A DNA stretch of 61,201 nt from a virus. Below the pieces are notes generated by a model, which was not told the DNA's origin, searched no databases, and worked only from the letters and a program-made list of their open reading frames with translations. The stretch spans positions 1 to 61,201 of the IMG/VR virus record IMGVR_UViG_3300042691_020681. One strand, 5' to 3'. Shown here piece after piece: positions 3,673-44,351 of this stretch. Both the position numbers and the translations under genes were made by a program. The number at the start of each line of letters is the position of its first letter. Positions within the stretch are counted from its first letter, which is position 1.

Positions 3673-3691
3673 CTCATCTACTCACCTTTTG

Positions 3692-3715
3692 CCCCTGGGA
3701 AACCAGGGGTTTTTT
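3692..3715 (+). terminator. Rho-independent terminator
   Basis: CCCCTGG and CCAGGGG pair around a GAAA tetraloop and are followed by six T residues. This is a textbook intrinsic terminator 20 bases after the HhH gene stop, ending the head-gene transcript. Confidence 0.9.
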
Positions 3716-3740: not shown

Positions 3741-4493
3741 ATGGCAGGGACAGCTTTATTCCTAGGTAATGTTGGTGCCACTGGAGGTACGTCCACTGGC
3801 CCCCATGCCCATTGGGAAGTGATGAAAGATGGGAAGCGTTTCCCGTTATCGAAGGCGCGTAAAGATATTGGCCAGTTTCTTCAGTTCCGTTTACCAGGGC
3901 AACAAACCTGGCAGCAGTTGTACAGCCCAGAATCCCAGGGCTTTCGGTTAAATCCCGCTGCAACAATTACCAGTCCTATGGGAGCACGGACTGCACCATC
4001 CCCTGGGGCATCAACTAATCACTTAGGTGAAGATTACGGTTTTCCAAAAGGTACTGCCTTGCGTTTTCTTGGGCAAGGATCTGTCTCTACTCATTCTGGT
4101 CAAGGCGCTGCGGGTAATGTTTCTGTTTTACGTACAGGTCCGTACGAGCTGCAGACGTTTCACTTAGATTCGCTGCCCCAGGCTGCAACAACACGCAAAA
4201 GCGATGCTGTAACCACTGCGAGTACGGGAGCAACCCCAGAAGCCTGGGCACAAGCATACGTGCAGAATCAGATTGAAAATCAAACGCAACAAGGCAAACT
4301 CATTGATGCGTTAATTAACGTGATTGGCGAGAAAGAAAAGCCAAAATCATTGATGGAACAGATGAAGGAAGGTTTGATCGGTAATGCACTGCAGCAAGCG
4401 TTAACACCCAAGAACTTCCTTTCTCAGTTCACTGGTTCTGATCCGTATCTTCAGGGTCAACAGTACGCCACCAGCCAATTCTTTGGGCTGTGA
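3741..4493 (+). CDS. M23-type zinc peptidase in circularly permuted order, virion-associated
   Basis: A 250-residue protein. M23 (LytM-type) endopeptidases cut peptide cross-links in peptidoglycan and normally carry H-x3-D first and H-x-H last. Here the end of the fold comes first: residues 10-27 match the STGPHAHWEV end motif (H22, H24). Residues 80-146 then match the start and middle of the fold: H94-LGE-D98, a GTALRF turn, and FHLDSL (H141). All expected zinc and catalytic positions are present but in permuted order. The C-terminal tail (about 195-250) resembles that of the lysozyme at 6425, suggesting a shared virion anchor. It follows a terminator, so it probably has its own promoter; no clear ribosome site is seen before ATG 3741. 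Confidence 0.7.
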   Translation: MAGTALFLGNVGATGGTSTGPHAHWEVMKDGKRFPLSKARKDIGQFLQFRLPGQQTWQQLYSPESQGFRLNPAATITSPMGARTAPSPGASTNHLGEDYGFPKGTALRFLGQGSVSTHSGQGAAGNVSVLRTGPYELQTFHLDSLPQAATTRKSDAVTTASTGATPEAWAQAYVQNQIENQTQQGKLIDALINVIGEKEKPKSLMEQMKEGLIGNALQQALTPKNFLSQFTGSDPYLQGQQYATSQFFGL

Positions 4494-4998: not shown

Positions 4999-6428
4999 TG
5001 GGTAATACATTCCTGCAAATGTTTATGCGTGGTGGCCCAGCAGCTCTGCGGGCTGTCCAGGGTTTTGGCGCTAAAGCTGCACCGAAAGCTGTCAGGCAGG
5101 TTGCCGATACTGTCACTAATCCACAGACGTATCGCGCCCTAGCAGCAAAAGCAGAGAACGTTCTCCAGCGTGGATTACCTGCTCCGTTTGCCGGTCCTAA
5201 CTTTGGCAATATTCCTACTCGTTTTACTGGTCTGATTAGTGACGTTGCTGAGATGCCAGCAGGCATACAACGTACTGTTCAAACGGGGATGGTGAATCGT
5301 GCCATTCAAGAAAGTGCGGGTGCTGTTCCACAACTCGCTCGTGGTGTACAACAGTACGCTACTGGCGCCCTCCGCGCTCCTGTTATTGGCGATGCCATTC
5401 GTACCGGTCAAGCGATAGTTACTAATCCACTGCAGACCGCAATTCAAACAGGTGGTCAATTTGCTAGGAATCCAGCCTTGCGGCGTGATTTTCTGCGCCA
5501 GTTTGGCGGCACCTCTGAAAAGGCAGCTCGTGCTTTGGCGGGTGGTGGCGGCATTAACTTTGGCCAGGTTGGAAGCCTGATGCAGAATCTGGGAACTAGC
5601 GCTGCTCCCTACTTCAAACCGTCATCTGCTTTTTCTCGCATTCCCGTCTTGGGCGCAATGCCAGGATGGGCTCAATCCATTGTCGCTCCGACTTCAGTAG
5701 CAGGTTCTATTGTTGCTTTGACACAGTTAGAAGGATCTTCTCCTCAGTCAGAAGATCCGTTTGATCGCTGGCAGCAGTTGGGATATTCTTCAAAAAATGA
5801 CATGATGCAGCGGGTTTCTCGGCAAGCACAGCTGGAGAACGCAGACCGTGCACAAGGCAAAGAAAAATTTGGCCCAGATGCTCCTTATGTAGTTGGTGGA
5901 ATCGCTTATAGTCCAATTACGGGTAGGGCTTTAAATCCGCCTACAAACGCATTTAACCCTCCTCAACTTGGTGGTGGCTCTCCGCCCCCACCTCCTGCTC
6001 CTACACTGCCGCCACCTCCGGGTCAAAGCAGTGCCGGGGCACAAGCCGGACAACAGACTCCCATCACCTCAGACGTTCCCGTTGGTGGTTCGTTTGCAGG
6101 TGGACCTACCTATCGCGGGGCTGGGGTGTCTACTGGGGCCGGTGTTCCCGCTCTAAGACAAAATGTTCAAAACCGCGCACTCACTCAAGAAGTACTTAAT
6201 GCTGCTCAGCAGTACGCTGCTCCTGCAGGTGTCTCCCTTCCTTCCTTCTATGCGGGCCAGCAGCAACTGGGTAGGAGCATGGAACAGACTGGAGAGCTAC
6301 AGCGTCAGCTGAACGAACTTGGTGGTGCTACGGGGATGACACCGGAAGCCCTGATGAAATGGGCTCAGGCAAATCCGGGTCTTGCTTACCGCGAACTACA
6401 GCGCCTACAGAGGAGAAACGTCCAATGA
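4998..6428 (+). CDS. large Ala/Gly/Pro-rich virion protein, possible internal/ejection protein
   Basis: A 476-residue protein. ATG 4998 overlaps the preceding stop by one base and is preferred to TTG 4989. The first 250 residues are Ala-, Gln- and Arg-rich amphipathic helix-like stretches (many GxxA spacings), followed by a Pro-rich linker around residues 325-350 and a Gln-rich helical end. There are no enzyme motifs. It overlaps the lysozyme gene at an ATGA, so both are made together. Such composition beside a lysozyme fits an internal virion or DNA-ejection protein, but this is inference. Confidence 0.5.
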   Translation: MGNTFLQMFMRGGPAALRAVQGFGAKAAPKAVRQVADTVTNPQTYRALAAKAENVLQRGLPAPFAGPNFGNIPTRFTGLISDVAEMPAGIQRTVQTGMVNRAIQESAGAVPQLARGVQQYATGALRAPVIGDAIRTGQAIVTNPLQTAIQTGGQFARNPALRRDFLRQFGGTSEKAARALAGGGGINFGQVGSLMQNLGTSAAPYFKPSSAFSRIPVLGAMPGWAQSIVAPTSVAGSIVALTQLEGSSPQSEDPFDRWQQLGYSSKNDMMQRVSRQAQLENADRAQGKEKFGPDAPYVVGGIAYSPITGRALNPPTNAFNPPQLGGGSPPPPPAPTLPPPPGQSSAGAQAGQQTPITSDVPVGGSFAGGPTYRGAGVSTGAGVPALRQNVQNRALTQEVLNAAQQYAAPAGVSLPSFYAGQQQLGRSMEQTGELQRQLNELGGATGMTPEALMKWAQANPGLAYRELQRLQRRNVQ

Positions 6429-7114
6429 ATGAGCGCCAGTTCTTAGAAAAGTTTCGTCAAACCCCTGAAGGTCAACGCCTCCTGAAAACCATCCGGTTTG
6501 CAGAAGGTACCGCTGGACCCAAGGGATACCAAACCATGTTTGGTGGCGGCACTTTTTCGGATCTGAGCCGTCATCCAGATCGTGTCATCCGCAGTGGCGG
6601 CTATGCCAGCGCTGCGGCAGGTGCCTATCAGTTCCTCCCTGGAACATGGCAAAGCCAAGCATCTCGCCTTGGTCTGAAAGGGTTCGGTCCAGCTGAACAG
6701 GACATCGCTGCCCTGGCACTGGCCCGCAACCGCCTGATGGATCTTGGGGGACTTGAGACCGTTCGCAAGGAAGGTTTAAGCCAACGTGTGGCTGCTGCTT
6801 TGGCTCCTGAATGGGCATCGTTCCCAACGGAATCCGGACGCAGTTATTACGGCCAACCCGTTAAATCACTTGCTGCTCTGCAGAAGTATTACGGGTCAGC
6901 GCCTGGAGTTACTGCTCCTCAAGCAGTGGCTGCTGCTACAGCTGCTCCACAGATTTCTACAGAGGCATTGACAACTGCTTTACGTAAGCGGAAAGCAACT
7001 TCTCTCCTAGATACTGTGAAAGCAGGGTTGATGGAAGGTTTGATGCAGCAAGCATTAACTGTTCCCAACATGTTTGGCAATCTGGGCTTTAGTCCTTTCG
7101 GAGGTCTTCAATAA
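6425..7114 (+). CDS. lambda R-type lysozyme/transglycosylase domain protein, virion-associated
   Basis: A 229-residue protein; ATG 6425 overlaps the previous stop (ATGA) and has GAGGAG upstream. Residues 20-130 match the lambda endolysin R / GH104 fold: catalytic-type Glu27 in RFAEGT, GYQTMFGG, and the AAAGAYQFLPGTW core with a following QDIAALAL helix. The enzyme cleaves the glycan strand of peptidoglycan. Its place in the structural operon, not by a holin, suggests it is carried in the virion for entry. The last 30 residues (SLLDTVKAGL...QQALT) resemble the tail of the M23 protein at 3741. Confidence 0.8.
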   Translation: MNERQFLEKFRQTPEGQRLLKTIRFAEGTAGPKGYQTMFGGGTFSDLSRHPDRVIRSGGYASAAAGAYQFLPGTWQSQASRLGLKGFGPAEQDIAALALARNRLMDLGGLETVRKEGLSQRVAAALAPEWASFPTESGRSYYGQPVKSLAALQKYYGSAPGVTAPQAVAAATAAPQISTEALTTALRKRKATSLLDTVKAGLMEGLMQQALTVPNMFGNLGFSPFGGLQ

Positions 7115-15197: not shown

Positions 15198-15222
15198 ATG
15201 GGAGTACTTGTTGTACTCCCAT
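15198..15222 (+). promoter_or_regulatory. 10-bp stem-loop overlapping the endolysin start codon
   Basis: ATGGGAGTAC pairs perfectly with GTACTCCCAT around TTGTT. The right arm ends inside ATG 15221 of the endolysin. A TAATAT -10-like box (15194-15199) runs into the stem. The hairpin would hide the start codon, so it may control lysis timing. Confidence 0.6.
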
Positions 15223-15874
15223 GTCCGATCTGCGGGAAGCTGTTGCTTTAATTCGCAAATATGAAGGCTTTAGCGAAAAAGCGTTCCCCGCTGATGACAC
15301 TGGGACTTATTCAATCGGTTACGGCACTCAATACTATCCTGATGGGTCTCCTGTTAAAGCAGGACAATGGTGCACCAAAGAAAAAGCACTTGAATACCTC
15401 ATCAAAGAAGTAAGGGCAATTCATGGCCTTCTGGCAGAATTAGATCTCCGCATTGATAATTCTGCTGAGCAAGCACTCATTTCCTTCATCCACTCGGTAG
15501 GCTGGAAGCCCTTCCTCTACAGCACCATCGTGGATTGCATCCAGCAGGATGACTGGGCTGGTGTCGCAGAGGAAATTACGCATTGGATTTTCGATGAGAA
15601 CCACAGGGTCATCGGTGGGTTAATTGATCGCCGTCGGGAAGAAGTGGAACTTCTGCTCCGTGAGATTGATGAAAACCCTTGGTGCTCAACTGAAGTGTTG
15701 ATGACTGCTTTCCGTAATTACACCGCAGCACCACATCAGGTACGTGCTATCCGCCAGCTGGAAGAAAGCATCAATCCATATGTGCTAGCGCAATTTGCTA
15801 ACGATTTCAAGGTAGATGAGGATCCTTGGAAACTGGACGACATCAAAGAAATAGAATCGTTATTCGCCAGCTAG
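15221..15874 (+). CDS. T4-type lysozyme (GH24 endolysin)
   Basis: A 217-residue protein. Residues 1-155 match phage GH24 muramidases: catalytic Glu15 in RKYEGF, an Asp at 25/26 and Thr36 in YSIGYGT form the Glu-Asp-Thr set, followed by the helical lobe with RRREEVELL. It hydrolyses the bond between MurNAc and GlcNAc in peptidoglycan. Residues 156-217 are an extra helical extension not usual in T4 lysozyme. There is no signal peptide, so it needs a holin for release. Translation may be restrained by the stem-loop over its start codon. Confidence 0.9.
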   Translation: MSDLREAVALIRKYEGFSEKAFPADDTGTYSIGYGTQYYPDGSPVKAGQWCTKEKALEYLIKEVRAIHGLLAELDLRIDNSAEQALISFIHSVGWKPFLYSTIVDCIQQDDWAGVAEEITHWIFDENHRVIGGLIDRRREEVELLLREIDENPWCSTEVLMTAFRNYTAAPHQVRAIRQLEESINPYVLAQFANDFKVDEDPWKLDDIKEIESLFAS

Positions 15875-27886: not shown

Positions 27887-28639
27887 ATGAGCACGCTGAA
27901 CGTAACAAACTTAAAGAACGAAGCAAGTGCCAGTAATAATGTCACGCTGGACTCGAATGGGCGCGTTGGTGTAGGTATTGCACCTAACACATCTCTTCAT
28001 GTAAAAGGAAATATAACTGTTGAGAATACAACAAATGCTCCTTTTATTAGTTTTGTTGAATCAGGGGATAACACAGATGAAAAAGCAAGAATTCAAATGG
28101 ATCAAATCAGCGGTACTGCTGGCCAGCTGATTTTCTACACAGAAAATGGAGGAACAATAGGAGAGCGTTTACGTATCCAGTCAGCAGGTGGTATTTCTTT
28201 TAATGGTGATACAGCTGCAGCTAATGCACTGGATGACTATGAAAAAGGAACTTGGACGCCTGCATTTGTTAATGCAACTTCTCCTTCTTATTCCTCTACT
28301 TATACCGATGGTTGGTATATCAAGATTGGGGATTTTGTTATGGCAGGAGGCGTTATAACAACAAATAGTTTTACAAATACTTCAGCTCAAATGCAAATTA
28401 CCCTACCTTTTCAAGTAGGCAACAACAACAGAGAATATGGCCCTGTTAATCTTTTTCCAGAATTTGGAAACAATTACAGTCCAGGTGAAATAATGGCACT
28501 TCTTGCTCCAGGGACAAGTCGTATGCAGTTTTATAAAATGAGTGCAAGTACGTCAGCTAACTATGTTGAATTCCAATATGTTGATGTTGAGGATGTTGGT
28601 TATCGAATTAGGTGGACCGCAGTTTACGGAACAGATTAA
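27887..28639 (+). CDS. tail fibre paralogue (module-shuffled)
   Basis: A 250-residue protein with a short adaptor (MSTLNVTNLKNEASASNN), one fibre unit (NGRVGVGIAPNTSLHVKGN), the shared joint (SFNGDTAAANALDDYEKGTW) and a unique C-terminal beta domain. It is the third of a set of paralogues with different tips, and the gene after it is a lysin two bases away. Confidence 0.75.
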   Translation: MSTLNVTNLKNEASASNNVTLDSNGRVGVGIAPNTSLHVKGNITVENTTNAPFISFVESGDNTDEKARIQMDQISGTAGQLIFYTENGGTIGERLRIQSAGGISFNGDTAAANALDDYEKGTWTPAFVNATSPSYSSTYTDGWYIKIGDFVMAGGVITTNSFTNTSAQMQITLPFQVGNNNREYGPVNLFPEFGNNYSPGEIMALLAPGTSRMQFYKMSASTSANYVEFQYVDVEDVGYRIRWTAVYGTD

Positions 28640-28641
28640 CA

Positions 28642-29763
28642 ATGACCATCAAACTTACTGACGCTGCTACATTTTTTAAACAGGAGAAGCATCAGATTGA
28701 TGCCTGGAACTGGTTGCAGTCTCAGCTAAGTACTGAAACGTTAGTTGAGTTTGGTAATAAGTACCGCACTAAACCTGTCGAGAAAGATGAATACGCAAAC
28801 ACCTGGGATGGTGTGTACGCAGCTGCCAAGAAAGCTGGTGCCAAATTCCCAGAATGTGTTGCAGCGCAATGGTTTTTAGAAAGTGCCCAGGGGAAACACA
28901 CTTCGTGCACTCATAACTACTTCGGTATCAAATCAAAAGATGGCGAAGGTTGTTACGTCACCACCAAGGAATTTATTGGCGGTAAAGAAGTAGAGATTAA
29001 GGATTGGTTTAAGAAGTTTGGCAGCCTGTACGAATGCGTTGATTACCTGGTTGGCAGGTGGTACAAAGATTTCAATGGATACAAAGGTGTTAACCGTGCA
29101 GCAACCAGGAATGAATGTGCTCAACTTCTGAAAGAAGAAGGTTACGCTACAGACCCCGGATATGTAACCAAATTAATTCAGATTATGGATCGGGAAGCAT
29201 CTGTTCCTGATCCAGCTACACCAGATATCATCAAGGAAAAGATCCTATCTGTACCCTACGAATACCAGCTTGATAACAAATCTGGTACTGGTTACCGCGA
29301 GTGTTTTTCTTCAACTTGCGCCATGATAGCCCGCTATTACGGCAAGGTCAAAAATGACGATGAGTACAACGCTATCCGTGCCAAGTACGGTGACACCACA
29401 AATAAAAACGCACAGCTCGCAGCACTCAAAGCCCTGGGACTAACGGCCAAATTCATCACCAATGGCAATGCTGCTCTCCTTGAAAACGAGATCCGTAATG
29501 GCAGGCCGGTAGCTGTTGGTTGGTTACATAAGGGAACCGTCAGTTACCCGACTGGTGGTGGCCACTGGACCTGCTGCATTGGATTTACGCCAACCAGTTT
29601 TGTGTTCAATGATCCAAACGGGGAGGCTGACATGATCAACGGTGGCTACGTCAGTAATAACGCCGCCAAAGGGAAAGGTGTACAGTACAGCCGGAAGAAT
29701 TGGTTACGCCGATGGGAGTGCGACGGAAGCAACACAGGATGGGCGATCCTGATCAACAAGTGA
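28642..29763 (+). CDS. bifunctional lysin: GH73-type glucosaminidase plus C39-like peptidase
   Basis: A 373-residue protein (ATG 28642). Residues 55-185 match the FlgJ/GH73 glucosaminidase domain: AAQWFLESAQGKHTS with Glu80, HNYFGIK, and an ECVDYLVGRWY helix. Residues 200-373 match C39-like cysteine peptidases: YRECFSSTCAMIARYYG with catalytic Cys221, His308 in GGGHW and Asp324 in FNDPNGE. Together these would cut both glycan and peptide bonds. It is the second lytic enzyme after the GH24 endolysin. No signal peptide is visible. It overlaps the gene at 29739. Confidence 0.8.
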   Translation: MTIKLTDAATFFKQEKHQIDAWNWLQSQLSTETLVEFGNKYRTKPVEKDEYANTWDGVYAAAKKAGAKFPECVAAQWFLESAQGKHTSCTHNYFGIKSKDGEGCYVTTKEFIGGKEVEIKDWFKKFGSLYECVDYLVGRWYKDFNGYKGVNRAATRNECAQLLKEEGYATDPGYVTKLIQIMDREASVPDPATPDIIKEKILSVPYEYQLDNKSGTGYRECFSSTCAMIARYYGKVKNDDEYNAIRAKYGDTTNKNAQLAALKALGLTAKFITNGNAALLENEIRNGRPVAVGWLHKGTVSYPTGGGHWTCCIGFTPTSFVFNDPNGEADMINGGYVSNNAAKGKGVQYSRKNWLRRWECDGSNTGWAILINK

Positions 29764-43676: not shown

Positions 43677-44351
43677 ATGACAACCCTCGTTGCCAACGTA
43701 CCACCGGTCAAGGTGTGGGTGAGGCGTGAGTACCTGCGTGACCTGCGTGATGGCCATGGTGAGTACACCCCTGGCTACTGGGTGACGTGTAAATCATTGA
43801 CGGGTCGCGCCCTGTACTTCGAGACATACCTGACGGAGTACGGCGCACTGTATGACAAGCTGCCGATCAGTGCGTTCCTGGCATGGGATCCCAACTATCC
43901 GGAAAAACCAGAAAGTCCAACCCCAGACCTGGAGTTAACTGATCTGCAGTTCTGGAATGGATTTGATCACGGGCTTACGGTCATTGAAAAAAACTTGATC
44001 TTCAATATGGAATTTCAAGTCATGACACGTAGTGCCGGTGTAATGAAAGGCACATACTTATTTACGATTGACAATTATCATCCGCATAGAAACGAACCCG
44101 ACTTTTACTTTGCGGAGTTTCCTGATGAGCACAAATCCCATAACATTGTGGCTCTGGACAACGGTCAAATTGGTGCTTATCCCAATAACCGTTGCCGCAT
44201 GTGCGATCCATCACTGACCAATCACAACCTCAAGACCCCAGACTTCAAGGTATCCACCCGTTACTTTGATGTGGAACATGCACCCAAATGGGGTCGTCTT
44301 GGAGAACAGGATGATTACTTTTGGAAAACTCCAAATGAGACGGTAGAATAA
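43677..44351 (+). CDS. unknown cyanophage-type protein
   Basis: A 224-residue protein with no membrane segment. It has a beta-rich N-terminal half (VWVRREYLRDLRDG, YWVTCKSLTGRALYFETYL), an FWNGFDHGL centre, an AGVMKGTYLFTIDNYH strand, and a CRMCDPSL loop. I do not recognise a family. It precedes a structured RNA and a tRNA. Confidence 0.55.
   Translation: MTTLVANVPPVKVWVRREYLRDLRDGHGEYTPGYWVTCKSLTGRALYFETYLTEYGALYDKLPISAFLAWDPNYPEKPESPTPDLELTDLQFWNGFDHGLTVIEKNLIFNMEFQVMTRSAGVMKGTYLFTIDNYHPHRNEPDFYFAEFPDEHKSHNIVALDNGQIGAYPNNRCRMCDPSLTNHNLKTPDFKVSTRYFDVEHAPKWGRLGEQDDYFWKTPNETVE

Follow-up and report, generated by a model that had tools for sequence, protein, structure and literature searches.

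The gene at positions 3741-4493 (+ strand) of the window, as we call the whole stretch of viral DNA analysed here (61,201 nucleotides; IMG/VR record IMGVR_UViG_3300042691_020681), encodes a 250-residue protein that is a circularly permuted M23 peptidase, homologous in sequence to M23 along the entire domain. Few families of wall hydrolases are as common in bacteria and phages as M23, which is identified from two motifs that occur in a fixed order; here that order is reversed. The rearrangement looks like a genuine version of a known enzyme rather than a damaged gene, because the swap is common to dozens of related phage proteins, some of them from quite different phages. As a whole, the results are best explained by a virion-associated zinc peptidoglycan endopeptidase with the M23 fold, the permuted chain of which closes within a single polypeptide and has a probable single origin in phages, and we consider this reading likely to be correct.

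Gene and motif order

The open reading frame begins with ATG at 3741 and ends with a stop codon at 4491-4493, and homologues were found for its product. The permuted M23 domain spans residues 1-146 (3741-4178), supported by an AlphaFold2 model of residues 1-150 with a 49-sequence alignment. It opens with a block (residues 8-33; 3762-3839) that is equivalent to the C-terminal end of a canonical M23 domain and carries the sequence STGPH22-A-H24-WEV, the H-x-H of which (H22-A-H24; 3804-3812) contains the putative catalytic histidine and third zinc ligand. A linker (residues 46-73; 3876-3959) bridges the canonical C- and N-termini and leads into a second block (residues 74-146; 3960-4178), equivalent to the canonical N-terminal part according to the 3slu match and the rotation scan described below. 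This block contains H94-L-G-E-D98 (H94-x3-D98; 4020-4034), the putative first two zinc ligands, followed by F-H141-L in the FHLDSL strand, where H141 (4161-4163) is the putative second active-site histidine at the position of LytM His260 (role according to PMC9662197). All of these features lie on the + strand.

The motifs described for M23 are H(x)nD, a further histidine about 30 residues before HxH, and then HxH itself (PMC9662197). In the window protein H(x)nD and HxH are both present, the canonical order of HxxxD before HxH is absent, and H141 precedes the HxH block only once the sequence is un-permuted. Because its motif order is reversed, the protein is classed among permuted variants rather than ordinary members. 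The first-pass annotation had placed HxH ahead of the other motifs, with every metal and catalytic position present, and both claims were borne out: H22, H24, H94, D98 and H141 are all found, and a search for homologues that share the order recovered about 55 IMG/VR loci as well as members of other phage groups. H22, G96, D98 and H141 are invariant in the alignment of 49 permuted sequences, and the position of H24 is occupied by His in nearly all window-type sequences and by Asp in the wider clade.

The reading frame is closed four codons 5' of the initiating Met, and a terminator-like hairpin (3691-3710, + strand; -16.8 kcal/mol, z -2.6) lies just 5' of the gene, one of a set of terminator-like matches whose count across the region is not above chance. 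Because of the closed frame and the hairpin, the N-terminus of the permuted protein is not the tail of a longer upstream M23. Nor do residues 10-30 belong to a separate truncated M23 copy, which had been named as an outcome that would undo the proposal: the start point is common to the window-type homologues, no M23-like sequence is present upstream and the two halves make up exactly one M23 domain.

Sequence tests of circular permutation

Pfam PF01551 matches residues 8-33 at profile positions 69-93 (of 96) with an E value of 1.3e-5, just under the curated cut-off. Two family profiles (A1 and A3) compared with the PDB matched M23 structures in two pieces in swapped order. For 3slu (whole-sequence E values of 9e-15 with A1 and 4e-17 with A3) query residues 60-144 align with chain residues 213-296 and query residues 8-39 with chain residues 308-339, and the break of the permutation falls within a loop that in 3slu has 11 residues (between chain positions 296 and 308). 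The same swapped two-piece match was obtained for 6muk, 6u2a, 6ue4 and 2gu1.

For an un-permuting test, the first block of five native domains was moved to the end and each was rescored with PF01551. The four domains that Pfam recognizes then gave one collinear M23 match with a higher score; the fifth, from S-EIV1, is recognized by Pfam in neither the native nor the un-permuted order. The un-permuted window domain is collinear over PF01551 positions 2-93 of 96 and its score rises from 26.9 to 29.4 bits (cut-off 28.7), while that of the Moraxella domain rises from 26.2 to 31.9. A rotation scan was performed with a profile of twelve canonical M23 domains, which also served as controls, each left out of its own profile. 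Rotation raised the window score from 40.1 to 67.6 bits and increased the score of all 49 permuted sequences, and the optimal cut fell within or next to the linker; for L071 and L072 the gain was only about 1 bit and the best match was still partial. The canonical controls scored best unrotated or at most 7 residues from their own termini.

Distribution of the permuted form

Single-sequence and profile searches of IMG/VR led to 58 contigs being fetched, one of which (L046) holds a C-terminal fragment only. The HxH block stands right at the N-terminus in the roughly 55 loci that keep the order, and in the loci examined the reading frame closes shortly upstream of the homologues. The permutation is also common well outside the window phage, which goes beyond the earlier annotation. 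It occurs in S-EIV1, in the tape-measure proteins of Moraxella Mcat and Acinetobacter phages, in a large tape-measure-type protein of a Thermosynechococcus assembly and at the C-terminus of virion proteins of the T7-like cyanophages P60, S-CBP1 and DSL-LC07. A degenerate-pattern scan added 264 IMG/VR relatives of the tape-measure type, the motif order of which was not individually confirmed. Matches in Vibrio Yong, S-RIM44, Sf-CH3, ACG-2014f and L083-L089 have the canonical order wherever the HxH end is in reach (L089 ends before HxH). No cellular relative was found in genome contigs with family profile A2.

When the domains were un-permuted and placed in a tree, from which the T7-like members were left out, the 25 permuted rows all grouped on one side (support 87/88). 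This result is consistent with a single origin of the permutation, although it is neither proof nor decisive.

Two arrangements of the domain within larger genes were observed. The tape-measure gene of Moraxella phage Mcat18 (L067:2670-7057) consists of two overlapping frames split at the permuted M23 domain, and the matches in Mcat21 and Mcat22 likewise fall into two pieces, owing to either a frameshift or a break. In L096:2406-5375 a glucosaminidase domain (PF01832) is followed by a C-terminal permuted M23-like domain in one polypeptide.

Genomic context and proposed function

The window belongs to an S-EIV1-like cyanophage, with a major head protein that shares 87.6% identity with the S-EIV1 counterpart over the full length and a surrounding gene layout that looks similar to that of S-EIV1. 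The window also carries a ferredoxin-family auxiliary gene at 43677-44351 (phrog_3704, E value 2.5e-98). The M23 gene is found within the structural region, close to the gene of the major head protein, and a λ-type lysozyme gene at 6422-7114 (+ strand; PDB 1am7, E value 8e-11; PHROG endolysin, E value 1.3e-29) encodes its likely partner. The C-terminal helical tail of the M23 protein (residues 198-236; 4332-4448, + strand) resembles the C-terminal tail of this lysozyme (6986-7099, + strand), with an alignment score of 63; the mean after shuffling was 21.7, and no score as high as 63 arose in 2000 shuffles. The corresponding score in S-EIV1 is 54, and there the similar tail is kept on a lysozyme the head of which is of another family (PF18013). 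Among 19 phages the tails match better within genomes (47.7) than between genomes (35.9), with 0 of 10000 permutations as high, values that are not corrected for relatedness. The shared tail suggests a virion-docking tag.

The structural neighbourhood, the fusion of relatives to tape-measure and internal proteins, the tail shared with the lysozyme and the presence of separate endolysin-like genes favour a virion-associated wall-opening enzyme. A rival reading is an endolysin that acts in lysis at the end of infection and not on entry, to which we assign a minor but appreciable share of the probability. A free-standing small hydrolase would suit that role, and no signal peptide is apparent by eye; against it stand the position of the gene amid structural genes and close to that of the major head protein, two further endolysin-like genes of the window that lie away from the M23/lysozyme pair (15221-15874 and 28612-29763) and the occurrence of permuted relatives as parts of tape-measure and internal virion proteins.

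For the favoured virion-associated endopeptidase, the chain would start immediately ahead of the HxH block and the domain would end just after the strand of the catalytic histidine, and a linker of roughly 30-40 residues would connect what are the two chain ends in canonical M23. Such a fold would close on itself and, by analogy with M23 chemistry, H24, H94 and D98 would bind zinc while H22 and H141 would activate water. The helical tail probably docks the M23 protein and the lysozyme in the virion, from where both enzymes would open the cyanobacterial wall during DNA entry. The permutation probably arose in a single event in phages, through tandem duplication with trimming at both ends, and the permuted form now occurs in several groups of virion proteins.

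Putative metal site and H-x-D relatives

Most of the wider permuted group carries H-x-D in place of the M23 H-x-H, a feature that the earlier annotation had also overlooked. The HxxxD histidine of the T7-like members is displaced or missing. Asp at the third zinc-ligand position also occurs in L058:2007-2762, L060:3481-4242, L047 and L001. In the tree L058 and L060 fall inside the window's own H-x-H subfamily, and the change to H-x-D in this subfamily is thus regarded as a separate event. Gp33 of phage P60 (L110:1370-4372) has a permuted M23-like domain that lacks the His of HxxxD and is possibly non-catalytic.

These substitutions bear on whether the M23 fold has been kept in a structural or glycan-binding virion component that is not an enzyme. 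The prevalence of HxD, with loss of a ligand, in the wider group and the loss of the HxxxD histidine in P60 would fit such a role, and M23 folds that have degenerated and serve non-catalytic functions are known (PMC9662197). Every ligand and catalytic position is, however, retained in the window protein and in nearly all close relatives, and we regard a non-enzymatic role here as improbable.

More tentatively, one ancient permutation may have founded a virion-specific M23 branch in tailed phages, in which the third ligand changed between His and Asp, once separately in L058/L060, to give a His-Asp-Asp metal site; we hold this wider scenario to be somewhat doubtful. To our knowledge a His-Asp-Asp metal site is not known in M23, and the H-x-D branch poses a testable question of metal binding.

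Predicted structure

AlphaFold2 predicts the full protein as a confident domain with an uncertain helical tail. Modelled as a monomer with 49 sequences, residues 1-150 form a single compact domain that contains both halves (pLDDT 92.7, pTM 0.87), in support of the earlier suggestion that the fold closes with its ends swapped. Closure is also supported by separately predicted permuted proteins, which match the model along its whole length in Foldseek. In a search of a viral library the four leading matches span the whole domain: an unnamed protein (probability 1.00), an internal virion protein of phage P60 (1.00), an S-TIM5 virion protein (0.99) and a tape-measure protein of an uncultured phage (0.92); among these four P60 alone is confirmed as permuted by sequence. 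A predicted phage Peptidase M23 matches one half (61 columns, 1.8 Å, probability 0.60). Foldseek searches of the PDB with both models returned no M23 structure, only spurious matches; an aligner that follows sequence order is expected to perform poorly on a permuted fold, but a PDB match to one half of the domain would have strengthened the case. A search for solved structures of cyanopodovirus internal proteins found none, and we know of no activity, virion proteomics or solved structure for any permuted member.

The site could instead be assembled between chains in a domain-swapped dimer or oligomer, in which one chain supplies HxH, a second supplies HxxxD and there is no closure within the chain. 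With some 30-40 residues, the linker is long enough to allow this arrangement, and AlphaFold2 was run on the monomer only; the compactness and confidence of the predicted monomer and the shorter linkers of the Moraxella and Acinetobacter proteins, in which the order is still kept, both speak against it, and we give it little credence. A chance fusion of a truncated M23 C-terminus to an N-terminal M23 half, or an assembly artefact, was rejected as extremely improbable, since the order is conserved across the IMG/VR contigs and in isolate genomes of other phages.

Comparison with known systems

Permuted members match the Pfam model in separate pieces, often near or below the cut-off, and for this reason are easily missed or called hypothetical. 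The variant reveals which M23 loop tolerates cutting, offers natural templates for relocating termini and, in several phage groups, flags likely wall-penetrating enzymes within tape-measure and internal virion proteins. A permuted M23 or LytM was not found described in the open-licence literature, and an absence from this scope is no proof of novelty.

Canonical M23 enzymes (PF01551; LytM, lysostaphin, ShyA and 3slu) share HxxxD, the catalytic His and G-x-S-T-G-P-H-x-H with the window protein, with profile matches in both halves, but have the two blocks in the opposite order. The S-EIV1 protein annotated as 'peptidase M23 family' (AHV82231; KJ410740) has the same gene place and the same permuted order as the window protein; it differs in having HxD in place of HxH, in its linker and in the PF18013 head of its lysozyme partner. 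The Moraxella Mcat and Acinetobacter tape-measure proteins contain an internal permuted M23-like domain like that of the window, but within a protein of ∼1440-1480 residues and with HxD. Circular permutation is known in the NlpC/P60 superfamily, which includes wall-lytic members (PMC6403190, PMC3142127). Although their papain-like cysteine fold is unrelated to M23, the permuted NlpC/P60 proteins (YaeF/YiiX, LRAT-like; PMC3142127) provide a precedent for circular permutation of the catalytic domain in a superfamily with wall-lytic members.
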